From Thermodesulfovibrionia bacterium (GTDB lineage Bacteria > Nitrospirota > Thermodesulfovibrionia > UBA6902): DNA of 36,313 nt. How positions within the stretch are numbered: position 1 is the stretch's first letter; every line of letters starts with the position of its first letter. Under the pieces are notes generated by a model that ran no database searches, was not told the origin of the DNA, and saw nothing but the letters and a program-made list of their open reading frames with translations. Below, in pieces: positions 14,395-24,754 of this stretch. A program made the translations under genes and the position numbers. The stretch covers positions 1 through 36,313 of the forward strand of contig CAMYND010000020.1 of the NCBI GenBank assembly GCA_947259645.1, read 5' to 3'.

Positions 14395-15036
14395 CTATTG
14401 AATCACAATCATTACTTCATTCCGCCTCATAAAAGGCGGTGTCCAGGGAGGATTATAGAGCGCCAGTTGATAGGATGAAATTATCCGGTAACCATCACCT
14501 GTAAGGAGTTCCTCGAGCCTGACGCGTTTTTTCTCTATCCGCTCATTAGTGGCATATCCGGCGAACCTCAGAACCGCAACTTTTTTCTTCTCTCTCTCAA
14601 CTAATGTGACTGCAGAATCAGAAGGAGCCGGAAGCGTCTCCGGGGTGTAGTTCTTCGGCATCATGAAAGATATGGAATGGGAACCCTCCCTCTCTTCCTG
14701 CATAACCGGAGCAGTCATTGCAATTTTTTCAGACCCCTCCTCTGGCTGCTGAGTAACGGGTGCGGTCATTTTTATTGACTCCTGTGATTTGTTATTTCCC
14801 GATATGTAGTCAAAAAGTATTTTAAAACCTCTTCCAAGTGCCTCTTTCCGTGTTCCCTCAACTACGACTTCGGCTGCAAGATAGGAATCGTACTCTCTGA
14901 TTTCATACCCGTGATGTTTCTTCAGGACAATGTACGAGGGATGCTCGATTCCCCGGACAGAAAGATAACTGTAACCAATCCAGACAATTCCAAATATGAT
15001 CAGGACAATAACGATCATGAATCCCTGCTTTCTCAC
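14395..15036 (-). CDS. SOUL haem-binding family protein, membrane-anchored
   Basis: The 213-residue product has one N-terminal membrane segment (about residues 7-26) and a SOUL/HBP domain (PF04832), the latter shown by GYEIREYDSYLAAEV, the KIAMTAPVMQ repeats, FMMPKNYTPETLP, LRFAGYATNE and the end motif YNPPWTPPFMRRNEV. SOUL proteins bind haem or tetrapyrroles; bacterial roles are poorly known. The domain would face the periplasm. The start used is GTG 15036, three bases after the peroxiredoxin stop; ATG 15018 with a GCAGGGA site is an alternative. Pairing with a peroxiredoxin suggests haem or peroxide protection. Confidence 0.87.
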   Translation of the reverse strand: MRKQGFMIVIVLIIFGIVWIGYSYLSVRGIEHPSYIVLKKHHGYEIREYDSYLAAEVVVEGTRKEALGRGFKILFDYISGNNKSQESIKMTAPVTQQPEEGSEKIAMTAPVMQEEREGSHSISFMMPKNYTPETLPAPSDSAVTLVEREKKKVAVLRFAGYATNERIEKKRVRLEELLTGDGYRIISSYQLALYNPPWTPPFMRRNEVMIVIQ

Positions 15037-15038
15037 TC

Positions 15039-15557
15039 TTATTTCTCGTTTGTATATTTACTGCTAACGCTTCCAGGATCGCGTGACAGTTTTTTTAATT
15101 CTCGCAGAAAATCTTTGTTCTCAGGCACACCCTTCTGAATAAAGCGCACAATCCCTTTTTTATCAATGAGATAGGTAATTCTGCTGCTGCCGTATACATC
15201 TTTTATCTGTCTTTCGCTATCTGATATGAGAGGGAATGTAATGTCGTATTCTTTCGCGAATTTCATATGTGTTTCCATGCTGTCGCCGCTCACTCCCAAT
15301 ATCTGTGCCTCAAGACGCTCAAACTTTTCCAGGTCACGCTGGAAAGATTGCATTTCACCCGTTCAGACCGGGGTGAAGTCAGCGTAATACAGGGCCAGTA
15401 CTACGTGTTTGTTCCCTTTAAATTCAGACAGTATGACAGTGCCGTGTGTTGAAACAGCCTCAAAGCCGGGGGCTTCTTCTCCCATACTCAATGCAGTAGA
15501 TATTGCCGGAACAGACATGATGATTACCAGAGTTACCGCAGTTATAATTTTTTTCAC
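15039..15557 (-). CDS. periplasmic peroxiredoxin, selenoprotein (Sec65, UGA at 15363-15365)
   Basis: Two adjacent open frames are one gene read through an in-frame TGA. The joined 172-residue product has a signal peptide (residues 1 to about 24), then a thioredoxin-fold peroxiredoxin of the BCP/AhpC-TSA type. The TGA falls exactly at the peroxidatic position: ADFTPV-U-TGEMQSFQRDLEKF, where ordinary members have Cys in TPVC. Later blocks ILGVSGDS, FPLISDSERQIKDVYG and TYLIDKKGIV confirm the family. The mature protein has no cysteine, so it would be a 1-Sec enzyme. A hairpin fitting a bacterial SECIS follows the UGA. The GTG at 15557 follows GGAGGTGAT, a near-perfect ribosome site; the upstream ATG 15572 is nearly at the predicted transcript start and less likely. 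SOUL follows in the operon. Confidence 0.85.
15324..15346 (-). promoter_or_regulatory. putative bacterial SECIS hairpin
   Basis: On the mRNA, the stem CUUUCCAG (15346-15339) pairs with CUGGAAAAG (15332-15324) with one bulged A, closing a six-base loop CGUGAC. The stem begins 16 bases and the loop 24 bases after the UGA. A short stem at this distance with GU in the apical loop fits the known bacterial SECIS pattern recognised by SelB. It lies within the coding sequence, as bacterial SECIS elements do. Confidence 0.75.
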
Positions 15558-15581
15558 CTTATCACCTCCCATTTATTTAAT

Positions 15582-16932: not shown

Positions 16933-18348
16933 ATGATAAAAAAACAGATCAAATCAGGGGGCAACGCAAGAAGATGCTTCATAATACTTTTTCTTGCCCT
17001 GTTAATAGTTGTTGCAGGCACACCTGCCTATTCTTTCACACCGGGGGTGCTGGACACAGAGGCTCTTCAGAAGACAAATGAAAGCTGTATGACCGCGCAA
17101 TGTCACGGAGAGCTGCAGGACCGGAAGTTTGTTCACGGACCGGTTTCTGCCGGTGAATGTACCATCTGTCATGGGGAATCACCAAACCACAAAGACAGGC
17201 CTGAGGATTATGCATTTAATCAAATTCAGGATTCTTCAAAAATATGTTATACCTGTCACGAACCATTTCAGGAGAAAGCCTTCACTCACAGCCCAACAGG
17301 TGAAGGAGAGTGCACGGCCTGTCACGATCCTCATGGATCATCGAACAAGTTCCAGCTCCTTTCCAGGGGAAGTAACCTCTGTTTTACCTGCCATGATGAA
17401 GACATCGTGGGAGGGAAATATGCACATGGTCCAGCAGCGGTGGGCGGATGTATTACCTGTCATGATCCCCATACTGCTGATTACGCTCATAATCTGAGGG
17501 CCAAGGGGTCAGATCTTTGCTATACCTGCCACACGGAAAAGAGAGAAGCCATTCATACTGCTGAATTTGTCCATAAACCCGTATCAGAGGATTGTACCAG
17601 CTGCCACAATCCCCACTCTTCTCAGGAGAAATACATGCTTCTTAGTAAAGTGCCAACGTTGTGCCTGGATTGTCATGAAGATCAAAAAAATAAAATAGAA
17701 TCAGCAACAGTAAAGCACGATGCACTTGAAATAGACAGGACCTGCCTGAACTGTCATGATGCCCATATGTCAAACATTGCGAAGAACCTGACCATGGAAC
17801 CGATGGATCTCTGCATGAACTGTCACGACAGGGTCTATGAGAAAGAAAAGGGGCGAGATATTGTAAACATGGAGAAGTGGCTGGCAGAGAACAGTGATCA
17901 CCACGGCCCCATAAAACAGAAAGACTGCTCAGGATGTCACAACCCCCACGGGTCAGAGAATTTCAGAATATTACGGGATACCTATCCCGCGACCTTTTAC
18001 ATGCCCTTTGCAGTGGAGAACTACAGCCTCTGTTTTAGCTGCCACGAGAAGACCCTCGTTCTCGAGCCGGAAACAACGCAACTGACGAACTTCAGAAACG
18101 GGAACCAGAACCTCCATTTCACCCATGTAAACAAGAAAGGGAAAGGAAGGACCTGCCGTGCCTGTCATGAAACCCATGGGAGTAATTATCCCAAACATAT
18201 ACGTGAAGCTGTTCCCTTTGGTTCATGGGACATGCCGGTGGAATTTCAGAAGACCGAGACAGGAGGAAGCTGTACGAGCGGCTGCCACCAGGAGAAAAAA
18301 TACGACAGGGTAAACAGGGAGAAGAACAGACATGATCTCGTTTCATGA
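16933..18348 (+). CDS. periplasmic multihaem c-type cytochrome (about 15 haems)
   Basis: The 471-residue product has a signal peptide (about 1-34, ending PAYSF) and haem sites along its whole length. I count 13 CXXCH motifs, one CX4CH at the N-terminus (CMTAQCH) and one CX3CH at the C-terminus (CTSGCH). Many fall in the doubled CXXCH pattern with recurring HGPV, CxxCHDPH and CxxCHNPHGS blocks, the signature of paired-CXXCH cytochromes. Such proteins carry electrons across the periplasm or to extracellular acceptors. The final residues (KKYDRVNREKNRHDLVS) follow the last haem without an anchor. The ATG at 16933 lacks a close ribosome site; a GGAAAGGA is about 25 bases away. It appears to be transcribed alone. 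Confidence 0.9.
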   Translation: MIKKQIKSGGNARRCFIILFLALLIVVAGTPAYSFTPGVLDTEALQKTNESCMTAQCHGELQDRKFVHGPVSAGECTICHGESPNHKDRPEDYAFNQIQDSSKICYTCHEPFQEKAFTHSPTGEGECTACHDPHGSSNKFQLLSRGSNLCFTCHDEDIVGGKYAHGPAAVGGCITCHDPHTADYAHNLRAKGSDLCYTCHTEKREAIHTAEFVHKPVSEDCTSCHNPHSSQEKYMLLSKVPTLCLDCHEDQKNKIESATVKHDALEIDRTCLNCHDAHMSNIAKNLTMEPMDLCMNCHDRVYEKEKGRDIVNMEKWLAENSDHHGPIKQKDCSGCHNPHGSENFRILRDTYPATFYMPFAVENYSLCFSCHEKTLVLEPETTQLTNFRNGNQNLHFTHVNKKGKGRTCRACHETHGSNYPKHIREAVPFGSWDMPVEFQKTETGGSCTSGCHQEKKYDRVNREKNRHDLVS

Positions 18349-18486
18349 CTTGATGCAGGACCATAGTTCGGTTCCCGATCATACGGAACCTTAACAAAGA
18401 AAGAATATGAAATGAACAGTATGAAAGAGCGAAGGAAATCATAACGGCCCATCGGCAGGTTCTTGAAGAGGGGGCGGAAGAACAGG

Positions 18487-18648
18487 GGCTCAGCAACCTT
18501 CAAATGGAGAGAAACGCGCTCCTATCTGAGGTGGGAAACTCCGGTGCTCGGCATTAATTCGGAAAGCAGGGATTCGCCCTTCATGCCCGGCTGTCAGGCG
18601 ATTTTCACAGTGGATTCACCGAAAAATCAATTCTATCTTTATGGATAG
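18487..18648 (+). pseudogene. C-terminal remnant of a gene, probably cytochrome-related
   Basis: An open plus-strand frame reads FKWRETRSYLRWETPVLGIN, then SPFMPGCQAIFTV and ends QFYLYG before a TAG. It has a protein-like composition, but no upstream gene body or credible start. The LRWE-PVLGIN / PF-PGCQ pattern recalls segments of octahaem tetrathionate-reductase-like cytochromes from memory, which I cannot verify. It lies in the 423-base gap between the multihaem cytochrome and katG, where I see no intact gene; the rest of the gap holds only the hairpin at 18686-18719. Confidence 0.35.
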
Positions 18649-18685
18649 ATATTAAGAATTACCGCTTTAAAGCTTTAACATTCCG

Positions 18686-18719
18686 GTTCCAGCGGCGGCG
18701 ATACGCCATCCGCTGGAAC
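18686..18719. terminator. strong hairpin downstream of katG
   Basis: Ten-base perfect arms GTTCCAGCGG (18686-18695) and CCGCTGGAAC (18710-18719) enclose 14 bases that themselves can pair (GGCG-ATA-CGCC). It lies 52 bases beyond the katG stop. No T run follows on either strand, so it may be a terminator of limited efficiency, a transcript-stabilising hairpin or a dispersed repeat. Confidence 0.45.
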
Positions 18720-18771
18720 TGGTTGTTATTTGCCGCCCTGTCATAAGCCCTCGAAGATGTTTCTACCACGA

Positions 18772-20994
<2,223 letters not shown>

Positions 20995-21112
20995 TTATGA
21001 ACCGTGCTGCTATGAAAATAGTACTTAGGTGCTCATATTTTTTATCCAAAAGCCTTTCGCCCTAAAAAGGGGGCACGTCCTTTCTTATGTGTAAGTATCT
21101 TGTGGATACTTT

Positions 21113-22087
21113 TTATCGGTACCCTATATTTTCAGTCTTACCCTTATGACAGGTAGTGCATTCAAACCCGAATTTTTTCACAATAATATGATGATAGGAA
21201 TGCTCTCCTTCATTCGGCTTGAACTTGCGATATCGCGAAACCTCTTTTGTCCCCTGATGACAGGCATAACATGTCTCCATTGCAGACTCCCACACTTTGA
21301 TAGATTGCTGCCTGTCCTTTGCCATGAGAGCTTCCCTGAGGTCTTTAAATACCAGTTTGTTTCTTTTCTGAGCAACCTTCAGCATATCTGGAGACAGATT
21401 TTCTTTATTACTAATTGCCAGTATCACCGGTTTGCCGCATCCCCTTACTCCTTCCGGATTATCAAGCGAGAATAATGCCTCATCAAGGTTTCCCTTCTCA
21501 ATCAGGAGCCGGGTTTTTACAAAGTTGAAATATCCCTTGTATGCGCCTGATTTAAAATAGAGTCGCTTGTTTGCCAGATAAAAGGCTGCCTTCCGGTCTG
21601 AGACAAACATGAGATCCCTGCCTTCAGCTAATCCATCCTTAATGACTTCTATAAATGAACCCTCTCCTTTCAGCCTGCTCTTCAACTGATCATAGATAAT
21701 GTTATTTTTCCCAACCACTACCAGATTGTGGGCTTTTATATCCTCATCTGAGATATCTTTATCGAGAATAATCGGGGGAAGGTTTTTATTCTGCTTTATC
21801 TTTTCAACAGATGTTCCCGGTTCCTGCGACCACTGCCCGATCATATAGGCCATACTGGCAACCTGGATGAACAGCTCCGGTGATTCTTTCTCTCCAATAA
21901 CAATAAGCGCATAGGGGACAAGAGCTTCTACTTCAAGGGGAGTCCCCATAAATGTTTTGCTGATTTGCAGATACTGAAATGTCCTGTCTGATACAGGTGT
22001 CGGTAATATTTGGAGCTTTCCGCCTGCATTGGACTGGGAAATCCCCATGAATATACAAATCAGCAACAGACTCAGTCCCTTTTTCAT
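21113..22087 (-). CDS. periplasmic di-haem c-type cytochrome-like protein
   Basis: The 324-residue product has a signal peptide (MKKGLSLLLICIFMGISQSNA), a long N-terminal region of about 230 residues without haem sites that looks alpha/beta (HNLVVVGKNNIIYDQL, LMFVSDRKAAFYLANKRL) and a C-terminal module with CYACH near residue 273 and CTTCH near residue 310. I do not recognise the N-terminal domain. ATG 22087 is chosen over 22099 because GGAGG lies five bases before it. It is the last gene of the minus-strand HEAT-MauG-lipoprotein set and probably exchanges electrons with the MauG-type enzyme. A short hairpin (AAGTATC/GATACTT, 21093-21111) follows the stop. Confidence 0.75.
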   Translation of the reverse strand: MKKGLSLLLICIFMGISQSNAGGKLQILPTPVSDRTFQYLQISKTFMGTPLEVEALVPYALIVIGEKESPELFIQVASMAYMIGQWSQEPGTSVEKIKQNKNLPPIILDKDISDEDIKAHNLVVVGKNNIIYDQLKSRLKGEGSFIEVIKDGLAEGRDLMFVSDRKAAFYLANKRLYFKSGAYKGYFNFVKTRLLIEKGNLDEALFSLDNPEGVRGCGKPVILAISNKENLSPDMLKVAQKRNKLVFKDLREALMAKDRQQSIKVWESAMETCYACHQGTKEVSRYRKFKPNEGEHSYHHIIVKKFGFECTTCHKGKTENIGYR

Positions 22088-22198
22088 TTTTTCCTCCATG
22101 CTCGTTTCACATCATCACTTATGAATCGATTCACCTGAAATCCTTAGTGAAAATTATATCTCATTTTTTGCCTTATGGCTACTCAACCATGAGAAACA

Positions 22199-22666
22199 TC
22201 AACCCGGGACTGCTATATTCTGACCGCACCGGAATGTCAGGCCGGTCGTACGAGTTAAAGGGTGATAGCCCACCCTCACAATACTCTTCTCCGGAAGATC
22301 GAATGGGAGCCTTACGGTAAAGTGTGATTCCCGCGTTCCCTTTCTTCGAATAATATTGGGAACATATCCTGTACTGATTTGTTCAATTATTTGTCCTTCG
22401 GGACCGATCACTGCTATATCAACATGGCCGCCGCTTTCAAAAACAGTAGATTTCAACTTTACACTCCCTATAATAACAGTGATTTCGCCATCAATATAAA
22501 CATTTGATTTGGAAACAAATATATTACGGGAAGACGAGGGAATAATTTCCAGATTCACTGCTCCTGTTTTCACGAGGTTCAACCCGCTTGTTGCACATGC
22601 AGATACTCCCATTACAAGTATTAAGATTAATATCGACGTCAGGGATTTTTTATATTTTTTCTCCAT
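22199..22666 (-). CDS. small lipoprotein of unknown function
   Basis: The 155-residue product has a type II signal peptide, MEKKYKKSLTSILILILVMG followed by the lipobox VSAC, with Cys23 as the lipidated residue. The mature part is beta-rich (VNLEIIPSSS, VYIDGEITVIIGSVKL, HVDIAVIGPEG, HFTVRLPFDLP), suggesting a small beta-sandwich facing the periplasm. I do not recognise a family. An AGGAG site precedes the ATG. It lies between the MauG-type gene and the di-haem gene on one strand, so it may anchor or assist those cytochromes. A 12-base palindrome TGAATCGATTCA (22122-22133) lies between it and the next gene. Confidence 0.7.
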   Translation of the reverse strand: MEKKYKKSLTSILILILVMGVSACATSGLNLVKTGAVNLEIIPSSSRNIFVSKSNVYIDGEITVIIGSVKLKSTVFESGGHVDIAVIGPEGQIIEQISTGYVPNIIRRKGTRESHFTVRLPFDLPEKSIVRVGYHPLTRTTGLTFRCGQNIAVPG

Positions 22667-22766
22667 TAGAGTAACTCCTTACAGTTAATTTCTTACTACA
22701 CTATTGTTCTTTCCCGGGCCTCAATCCTTCCGGGACAATATTTACCCGCGCCCGCTTCATGTCCGG

Positions 22767-24050
22767 TTACCTCTCCTTTTCAGGGATGAATCCATCTGAA
22801 AGTGTCTTCATGAAAGCCACTATTGCCTCTTCCTCGTCATCGGTAAGTCCAAGATTACCTAACTCATCCCTGTTCATATTCTCCTTAACTTCTGCCTCGG
22901 GCCAGCACCCTTTTGCCAGGGCATGTGACTCGATATACAGACCTGAGCAGGAAGGTTTTACATCTCTTGTATTATAGAAGTGGACGAGCCCCTTCAGGGT
23001 CTTGAAATAGCCATTATGCATATATGATTTAACAAATTCTTTATCCGGGCGTTTGTCCGCGTTTCTCAAAGTAGGGACTTTCTGTTTCCCCATGTTCTCC
23101 TGAGCCAGTTTTTGCCATGCTTCTGGATTCTCCGGTTTTTCCAGGAATCCTCCCAGGCCCTTGTCAATGAAGACAGGATTCACATCATATGCAGGGTTTT
23201 CCGGATTGACTGGAACTCCCAGGTTATCAAATGAAAAGTCCGTAAAGAGAGGCTTCTTTCCCTCTGAGATATGGCAATCAGCGCATTTCCCCTTTTCATT
23301 GAACAACTCCAGCCCCTTCATCTCCTTATGAGTCAGTTCAACTTCCCCTTTCAAATAATAATCAAATTTTGATGTATAGGGATTAACTTCCGGGGAAGCC
23401 TCATATGCGGCAATAGCCAAAGCGATAGCATCGTATGCCTTCTCAACTTTGTTCCTCTCTTTTTTAGAAAGGACAATCTTCTTTTCCTGATCACATTGAC
23501 TGTCAATATCACGGGGCCATTCAATACTGCACTCTCCGGGATTCACCCTCTTAAGGGAGATGGGATAATTCGCATTACAAACCCGGTGCACTACACATGC
23601 CGCATCGGTAAGTGCCTGCTCTACGGGATTCAGGAAAGGACCCTGTGCCTGATCTGCTGCCGCGTTTCCCAGTTTTTCCCCGGTGGCACGGCCATCCCAG
23701 AAATTACCTCCAATAAACAGTCCCTCTCTCTTATTAAAGTGAAATATTGGACTGACAGCAGCATATGCTGCTGTCGGAGGCTTCCGGTCTCCAAACCGAA
23801 TCTTTATAGAGCCATTGTACGCGGCTCCGTGTGTATTTATCCCGCTGTCAGGTCCTGTCCATCCTGTTGCAGGATCATGACAGGTAGCACAGGACTGGTT
23901 CCTGTTGATCGAGAGATTTTCGTCAAAAAATATGGACTTCCCCAGCTCCTCATTCGGTGTAAGTTTGTGCGCTGCTTCAGTCACTGTGGAAACATTGAGT
24001 GTTATGGCTGCTATAAATATAACCATACATTTAATCATTTTTTTGCTCAT
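22767..24050 (-). CDS. MauG/cytochrome c peroxidase-type di-haem enzyme
   Basis: The 427-residue product has a signal peptide (about 1-27) and two c-type haem sites, CATCH at residues 54-58 and CADCH at 256-260. The LGKSIFFDENLS opening, NFWDGRATG, FLNPVEQ, KVPTLRNADKRPDKEFVKSY and the terminal LTDDEEEAIVAFMKTL match the MauG/CcpA family. Members reduce H2O2 in the periplasm or oxidise protein side chains. Between the two haems is an insertion with four extra cysteines (ACVVHRVC, GECSIE, DSQC), and two more near the C-terminus (PSCSG, KGCWP), probably disulfides. ATG 24050 gives a clean signal peptide with AAGGAG upstream; the frame extends further to 24137 without support. Confidence 0.9.
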   Translation of the reverse strand: MSKKMIKCMVIFIAAITLNVSTVTEAAHKLTPNEELGKSIFFDENLSINRNQSCATCHDPATGWTGPDSGINTHGAAYNGSIKIRFGDRKPPTAAYAAVSPIFHFNKREGLFIGGNFWDGRATGEKLGNAAADQAQGPFLNPVEQALTDAACVVHRVCNANYPISLKRVNPGECSIEWPRDIDSQCDQEKKIVLSKKERNKVEKAYDAIALAIAAYEASPEVNPYTSKFDYYLKGEVELTHKEMKGLELFNEKGKCADCHISEGKKPLFTDFSFDNLGVPVNPENPAYDVNPVFIDKGLGGFLEKPENPEAWQKLAQENMGKQKVPTLRNADKRPDKEFVKSYMHNGYFKTLKGLVHFYNTRDVKPSCSGLYIESHALAKGCWPEAEVKENMNRDELGNLGLTDDEEEAIVAFMKTLSDGFIPEKER

Positions 24051-24118
24051 TATGTTATAACTCCTTTTTCTCACTCTCGCTCCGCTCATTGCACGGCCCG
24101 TATATACACTTATCATGT

Positions 24119-24754
24119 CTAATTTGTACTCAACCACCAGTTATTCCACTGTTCATGATCCGTCCCGAAATCCTGTTCTGTTATCTTCTTCAGCGCTTCA
24201 GCCGCATGATCACAGCACTCATCATCATTGAGCGCAGTAATCAACGCACCTACTGCCTTTGGATCCCTGATCTCTCCCAGGGCCCATGCAGCATGGGTTT
24301 TAACAACCTGTTTTTTACCGTTTAATAAATCAACCAGGGGATTTACGGCTTTCGCGTCTCTTATTTCACCTAGTGCCTGAACAATATGACTCTGAACAAA
24401 TTCATCTTCATCATTCAATGCTGCAATGAGCGGTTCTACTGCCGCGCTTTGCTTTATTTTGCCGAGAGCTTCTGCCGCATATGCCCTGACATAGATGTTG
24501 TCGTCCTTGAGTGCCTTTATCAGCGGGATTGTACCTTCCGGGTCACCCAGCTCTCCCAGATCCTGAGCTGTGTTTGCCCGCACAAATGGATCGTTACTCT
24601 TGAGCATCGATGTCATTACATCTATTTCGCTCAGTTCAATGGCTGCCATACTGGCGGCATTGAACGCTCTGTTTTGTAAAGCTGCATATGATAAGCTCGC
24701 TGTAGCGAGCATCACCATAATTATAAGGGTTGATATGATATTTTTCTTTTTCAT
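24119..24754 (-). CDS. periplasmic HEAT-repeat protein
   Basis: The 211-residue product has a signal peptide (MKKKNIISTLIIMVMLATAS, cleaved near SYA) and about five HEAT/PBS-lyase-type repeats of roughly 31 residues, each carrying a variant of VRAxAAxALGEIRDPKAVxPLIxAL. The chain ends with a tryptophan-rich WNNWWLSTN. Such solenoids serve as protein-protein platforms. It is the first gene of the minus-strand operon, 68 bases before the MauG-type start, with AAAGGAG nine bases before its ATG. A scaffolding role for the periplasmic haem proteins is plausible but inferred. Confidence 0.85.
   Translation of the reverse strand: MKKKNIISTLIIMVMLATASLSYAALQNRAFNAASMAAIELSEIDVMTSMLKSNDPFVRANTAQDLGELGDPEGTIPLIKALKDDNIYVRAYAAEALGKIKQSAAVEPLIAALNDEDEFVQSHIVQALGEIRDAKAVNPLVDLLNGKKQVVKTHAAWALGEIRDPKAVGALITALNDDECCDHAAEALKKITEQDFGTDHEQWNNWWLSTN

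Follow-up and report, generated by a model that had tools for sequence, protein, structure and literature searches.

The stretch of DNA analysed here (the window, 36,313 nucleotides from a Thermodesulfovibrionia bacterium) raises the question of whether an in-frame UGA on its minus strand terminates a reading frame or is translated as selenocysteine (Sec) at the catalytic position of a peroxiredoxin. The initial annotation had proposed a single gene at 15039-15557, read through the TGA, with Sec at the peroxidatic position. The gene and its signals are as follows:

15039..15557, minus strand: coding sequence of the Sec-peroxiredoxin, with a GTG start (15557-15555), a TAA stop (15041-15039), 172 aa, Sec65
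15363..15365, minus strand: in-frame UGA, the selenocysteine codon (Sec65), at the peroxidatic Cys position by alignment
15565..15570, minus strand: Shine-Dalgarno GGGAGG, 7 nt upstream of the GTG at 15557, identified in the sequence

Translation with TGA as U yields a product with a single UGA, at residue 65, in the context ...YYADFTPV-U-TGEMQ.... The product reads MKKIITAVTLVIIMSVPAISTA↓LSMGEEAPGFEAVSTHGTVILSEFKGNKHVVLALYYADFTPV-U-TGEMQ..., where the arrow marks the predicted cleavage site, and the whole 172-aa chain contains no Cys, which bears out and extends the earlier observation that the mature chain holds no other Cys. When the open reading frames were listed without recoding, only the downstream frame at 15039-15353 (104 aa) was obtained. 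Both strands of the window were also scanned for read-through candidates, defined by at least 40 open codons on each side of a TGA and a SECIS-like hairpin, and the Sec-peroxiredoxin was the only one. Since TGA is the normal terminator of 11 of the 28 ORFs in the window, the genetic code is ordinary. In alignments the UGA falls precisely on the peroxidatic Cys of AhpC/TSA proteins, as had been claimed, and this column is occupied only by Cys or Sec in 66 sequences. Purifying selection between the window gene and its paralogue in the same genome was detected both upstream (dN 0.125 / dS 0.71) and downstream of the UGA (dN 0.136 / dS 2.7, the latter dS being near saturation).

A SECIS-type hairpin follows the UGA:

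15326..15345, minus strand: bacterial SECIS hairpin UUUCCAG-CGUGAC-CUGGAAA, loop from UGA+25, G at loop position 2

The hairpin starts 18 nt past the UGA, with 24 nt from the UGA to the loop, and consists of a 7-bp stem and a 6-nt loop in which the G at position 2 is followed by U; its MFE is -8.8 kcal/mol. Published limits for bacterial SECIS elements are a loop of 3-9 nt, a stem of 4-16 bp, a G in the first two loop positions, a distance of 16-37 nt from the UGA and an MFE of at most -7.5 (PMC13188914), and the hairpin of the window gene lies within all of them. A single geometric scoring rule gave values of at least 16 for 14 of the 15 Sec homologues. The window gene scored 17, a value attained at 1.5% of 16,708 control positions, and the mean for Cys homologues was 6.7. 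The homologues in G015 and G024 have the stem offset by one pair (UUCCAGA-UGGA-UCUGGAA), again with G second in the loop. The G452 homologue has an imperfect, interrupted hairpin, and a more distant homologue (L037) did not fit the scoring rule; some genuine bacterial SECIS elements are known to violate the model (PMC9312934). Codon identity at identical residues was 0.89 in the hairpin codons against 0.36 directly before the hairpin, 0.51 upstream of the UGA and 0.43 farther downstream. Because the folding energy of the 48 nt from the UGA was not below that of shuffled sequences (z = -0.22), the argument for the hairpin draws on geometry and conservation. An Rfam scan of the locus returned no SECIS family match (one chance match). 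Thus, the fitting SECIS that had been described after the TGA is upheld by its geometry and conserved codons, with folding energy alone not significant.

The initial annotation had made its reading depend, in advance, on Sec machinery elsewhere in the genome. In the source genome (99.6% complete, 131 contigs) we found the full set of selA, selB, selD and tRNA-Sec (selC). The selB gene lies on contig C11 (369 bits) with selA immediately upstream (520 bits), and the tRNA-Sec, with anticodon TCA, is on C83 (72 bits). The selD gene (323 bits) carries an in-frame UGA of its own within AGG-U-AAKL, followed by a SECIS-like hairpin. Across the order, 42 of 47 genomes have selA, so the use of Sec is general in this group. 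No selA was found in the 91% complete draft G024, though it carries the Sec-peroxiredoxin gene, and we read this absence as a probable gap in the draft.

Homologues were searched for in the order, the phylum and the class (230 class genomes). Eight loci in seven class genomes form the clade: the window gene, a paralogue on contig C42 of the same genome (74% identity), and single loci in G014, G015, G016, G024, G391 and G452. Four of these correspond to named records: one is a Thermodesulfovibrionia MAG, two are MAG chromosomes given as 'Nitrospiraceae', and one is a MAG that bears the label Nitrospira sp. isolate BS150m-G55. All eight loci have TGA at the peroxidatic codon, and no Cys form was found among them in the 230 class genomes; together with the verified coordinates and strand, this confirms the single gene at 15039-15557. 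In a tree of 66 proteins, which includes seven of the eight clade members, the clade is one branch (support 100/99) separate from other Sec and Cys peroxiredoxins. Only A29, the Cys/Sec column, D113 and R126 are invariant across these proteins. Elsewhere in the tree, a Cys form (L031:286-822) is nested in the Acidobacteriota Sec-peroxiredoxin branch, likely a Sec-to-Cys conversion. For several Cys homologues among the phylum matches (L115, L121 and others) a stop was counted inside the match; probably the matched range simply takes in the terminal stop of each gene, and no recoding is involved.

The protein belongs to the peroxiredoxins by both sequence and fold. It matches PF00578 (AhpC-TSA) with an E-value of 2.1e-30 over a region spanning the UGA, and the AF2 model (pLDDT 91) has a peroxiredoxin fold with values above 90 except in the leader and tail, where confidence is low. 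Among solved structures, BCP/PrxQ proteins and AhpE (3drn, 5enu, 3hjp, 1xvw) come closest in fold, at 28-34% identity and, for the best, about 1.5-1.8 Å. The protein scores below every NCBIfam cut-off, including those of the PrxU equivalog NF040737 (53.4 against 270 bits) and the PrxQ/BCP equivalog NF006960, PRK09437 (52.6 against 140 bits). No curated NCBIfam family covers the clade.

Peroxiredoxins carry a PxxxT/SxxC motif. In the clade the full motif, with C or U at its end, is broken: its near-universal Pro, at position -7, is replaced by Tyr in seven members and by Phe in the G452 homologue. Thr/Ser at -3, Sec at 0 and the active-site Arg126, the same in all 66 sequences, are kept. The form PxxxTxxU has been termed highly conserved in Sec peroxiredoxins in a 2026 review (PMC13188914). 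At -7 most Cys homologues have Pro, with Val, Ala or Ser in a small number of them. Since these few also lack Pro, its loss is not exclusive to Sec forms, and its absence excludes the classic motif only, not membership of the superfamily. The missing Pro could alter activity. Val replaces the motif Pro in two Sec homologues outside the clade, L044:3595-4113 (Myxococcota) and L037:3181-3645 (Rokubacteria); as both are without Pro, the loss may recur in Sec forms.

The clade shares a peroxidatic Sec, the AhpC/TSA fold, the TxxU motif and a SECIS after the UGA with PrxU of Eubacterium acidaminophilum and the PF00578 TxxU selenoproteins. It differs from them in its predicted export, in Tyr or Phe for the Pro of PxxxTxxU and in its own well-supported branch. 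With PrxQ/BCP and AhpE it shares the nearest folds and, as in 1-Cys AhpE, a mechanism with a single catalytic residue. Those proteins use Cys, whereas the clade has a leader, no Cys and NCBIfam scores below the cut-offs. Most BCP/PrxQ proteins have a resolving Cys.

The N-terminus suggests that the enzyme works outside the cytoplasm:

15492..15557, minus strand: predicted signal peptide MKKIITAVTLVIIMSVPAISTA, cleavage likely before LS, read from the sequence

The SxA↓L-type cleavage site is kept in close homologues, and in every clade member the domain is preceded by a basic N-terminus, then a hydrophobic segment and a cleavage site of the small-x-Ala type. The signal peptide claimed earlier therefore has a signal-peptide-like counterpart in all clade copies. 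As none of these copies has another Cys in the mature chain either, we infer that the clade represents a one-Sec enzyme outside the cytoplasm. The initial annotation had also held exported Sec-peroxiredoxins to be uncommon, and this did not stand: a leader-like sequence is also present at the start of L041, L044, L066, L068, L070, L073 and L075, seven of the eight Sec homologues more distant than the clade, L037 alone appearing to lack one. The leader-bearing proteins come from Acidobacteriota, Myxococcota and a contig binned as Planctomycetota. Like the clade, they have the putative leader, the Sec column and a SECIS of like geometry but other sequence. They differ in being only 30-38% identical, on separate tree branches, in keeping the Pro (except L044) and in having no SOUL gene in the loci examined.

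Directly downstream of the peroxiredoxin, beginning 2 nt past its stop codon, lies a second gene:

14395..15036, minus strand: SOUL heme-binding-family protein with an N-terminal membrane anchor, 213 aa, PF04832

Its PF04832 match is strong (E = 2.1e-50; 171.5 bits against a cut-off of 27). By sequence it is a clear relative of SOUL and heme-binding proteins 1 and 2, from which it differs in its membrane anchor and its apparent operon link to a Sec-peroxiredoxin. The N-terminus has basic residues followed by a hydrophobic helix, which by the positive-inside rule would place the SOUL domain outside the cytoplasm. The order peroxiredoxin-SOUL is found in four of the eight loci (the window, the C42 paralogue, G014 and G016), and the two genes overlap or are separated by less than 30 nt in C42, G014 and G016. 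No SOUL gene was found near the homologues in G015, G024, G391 and G452; G015 has one elsewhere in its genome and G024 none. Of the order's 47 genomes, four encode SOUL, and all four are among the five that carry the peroxiredoxin. A hand calculation puts the probability of this co-occurrence at 5/178365 = 3e-5, on the assumption of independent genomes, which does not hold. The pairing is not general for Sec-peroxiredoxins, as no SOUL gene was present in the examined loci of Acidobacteriota, Myxococcota, Rokubacteria and Planctomycetota. We also rejected SOUL as the source of a resolving thiol: Cys is absent from the five SOUL proteins examined, so SOUL cannot resolve a selenenic acid by a thiol. 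A search of the open-access literature found no paper linking SOUL to a Sec-peroxiredoxin, and by that search this probable operon partner is unreported. The initial annotation had mentioned neither the downstream SOUL gene nor the second genomic copy nor the replaced motif Pro. A weak SOUL fragment (39% over 49 aa, in a 52-aa open frame) occurs at L153 (G000:C55:18046-18186), where the examined locus has no peroxiredoxin match; it is perhaps the remnant of a further copy.

The wider surroundings include further redox genes:

18772..20985, minus strand: KatG-type catalase-peroxidase (context), also near the G024 homologue (80% identity)
16933..18348, plus strand: multihaem c-type cytochrome with paired CXXCH (context), also adjoining the G016 homologue (69% identity)

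A di-haem cytochrome c peroxidase (CCP/MauG) is also present in the window. KatG, the multihaem cytochrome c and CCP/MauG lie at 16933-24137, all within 9 kb of the gene, and this is a possible peroxide-defence region. Near the G452 homologue a ferritin-like and an MsrA-like gene were recognized by eye only. These neighbours fit peroxide defence. The paralogous peroxiredoxin-SOUL pair (L135, G000:C42, 8580-13693) adjoins what by eye is an NAD-linked NiFe hydrogenase-like cluster, and two subunits of that cluster (85-87% identity) are also found near the pair in G014.

Taken as a whole, the gene very probably encodes an exported one-Sec peroxiredoxin, with Sec inserted at UGA65, which is reduced externally and co-made with SOUL where SOUL is present. 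SelB, acting on the SECIS just after the UGA, would bring Sec-tRNA(Sec), and the ribosome would insert Sec65 without stopping. The chain would then be exported and probably cleaved after STA. From the chemistry of the family, the selenolate of Sec65, placed where a helix begins, would attack peroxide together with the conserved Arg126 and become a selenenic acid. Since the chain has no second Cys or Sec, an outside reductant is required, presumably a thiol or redox protein of the same compartment. In SOUL-bearing lineages gene order suggests an operon, through which the Sec-peroxiredoxin would be co-made with a membrane-anchored SOUL protein facing the same compartment; SOUL might act as a heme binder or have a supporting role at the membrane.

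A conventional ORF caller shows only the 104-aa downstream frame, as would be expected if the UGA were a real stop within a decaying pseudogene or between two separate small proteins. However, the same UGA recurs in eight loci of seven genomes with purifying selection on both sides, the split sits precisely at the catalytic residue, a SECIS follows it and the genome encodes the full Sec machinery; the conservation in particular makes a real stop very unlikely. Decoding of the UGA as some other amino acid, through a genome-wide code change or a suppressor tRNA, has nothing beyond the open frame to recommend it. It conflicts with the ordinary use of TGA as terminator, with a tRNA-Sec carrying the TCA anticodon and with the occurrence of read-through plus SECIS at only one UGA in the window, and we regard it as more improbable still.

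What the selenoprotein does leaves more room for doubt. We infer its peroxidase function by analogy, and a protein with the peroxiredoxin fold might instead be an exported thiol/selenol oxidoreductase, a peroxide sensor or a SOUL partner and not a general peroxidase. The lost motif Pro, the lack of a resolving Cys and the tight pairing with SOUL in four loci would agree with such a role, but Thr/Ser at -3 and Arg126 are retained, and genes for peroxide defence are close by (in the window, KatG and cytochrome c peroxidase; at G452, by eye, the ferritin-like and MsrA-like genes). The protein also lacks UxxC, the motif of Prx-like thiol:disulfide oxidoreductases (PMC13188914), and we consider a non-peroxidase role unlikely. 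A more speculative proposal, to which we give a slim but real chance, is that Sec-peroxiredoxin and SOUL work as a dedicated pair outside the cytoplasm: the selenoenzyme, lacking the motif Pro, would protect a heme-binding partner in the membrane or receive help from it, and its electrons might come from heme or cytochromes instead of thiols.

The one-Sec peroxiredoxin is thus a genuine selenoprotein whose general type is known; its subfamily is distinct and apparently exported, and has an altered motif and a seemingly unreported partner. New here are the replacement of the motif Pro by Tyr or Phe, the pairing with SOUL and the lack of a curated NCBIfam family. Because the UGA cuts the gene at the catalytic residue, a whole clade of putatively exported selenoenzymes escapes ordinary gene prediction. 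The clade suggests that Nitrospirota carry out Sec-based chemistry beyond the cytoplasm, and it allows a test of whether Sec can dispense with the Pro that is thought to shape the peroxiredoxin active site. The pairing with SOUL provides a genetic lead to the role of bacterial SOUL proteins, which is poorly known.
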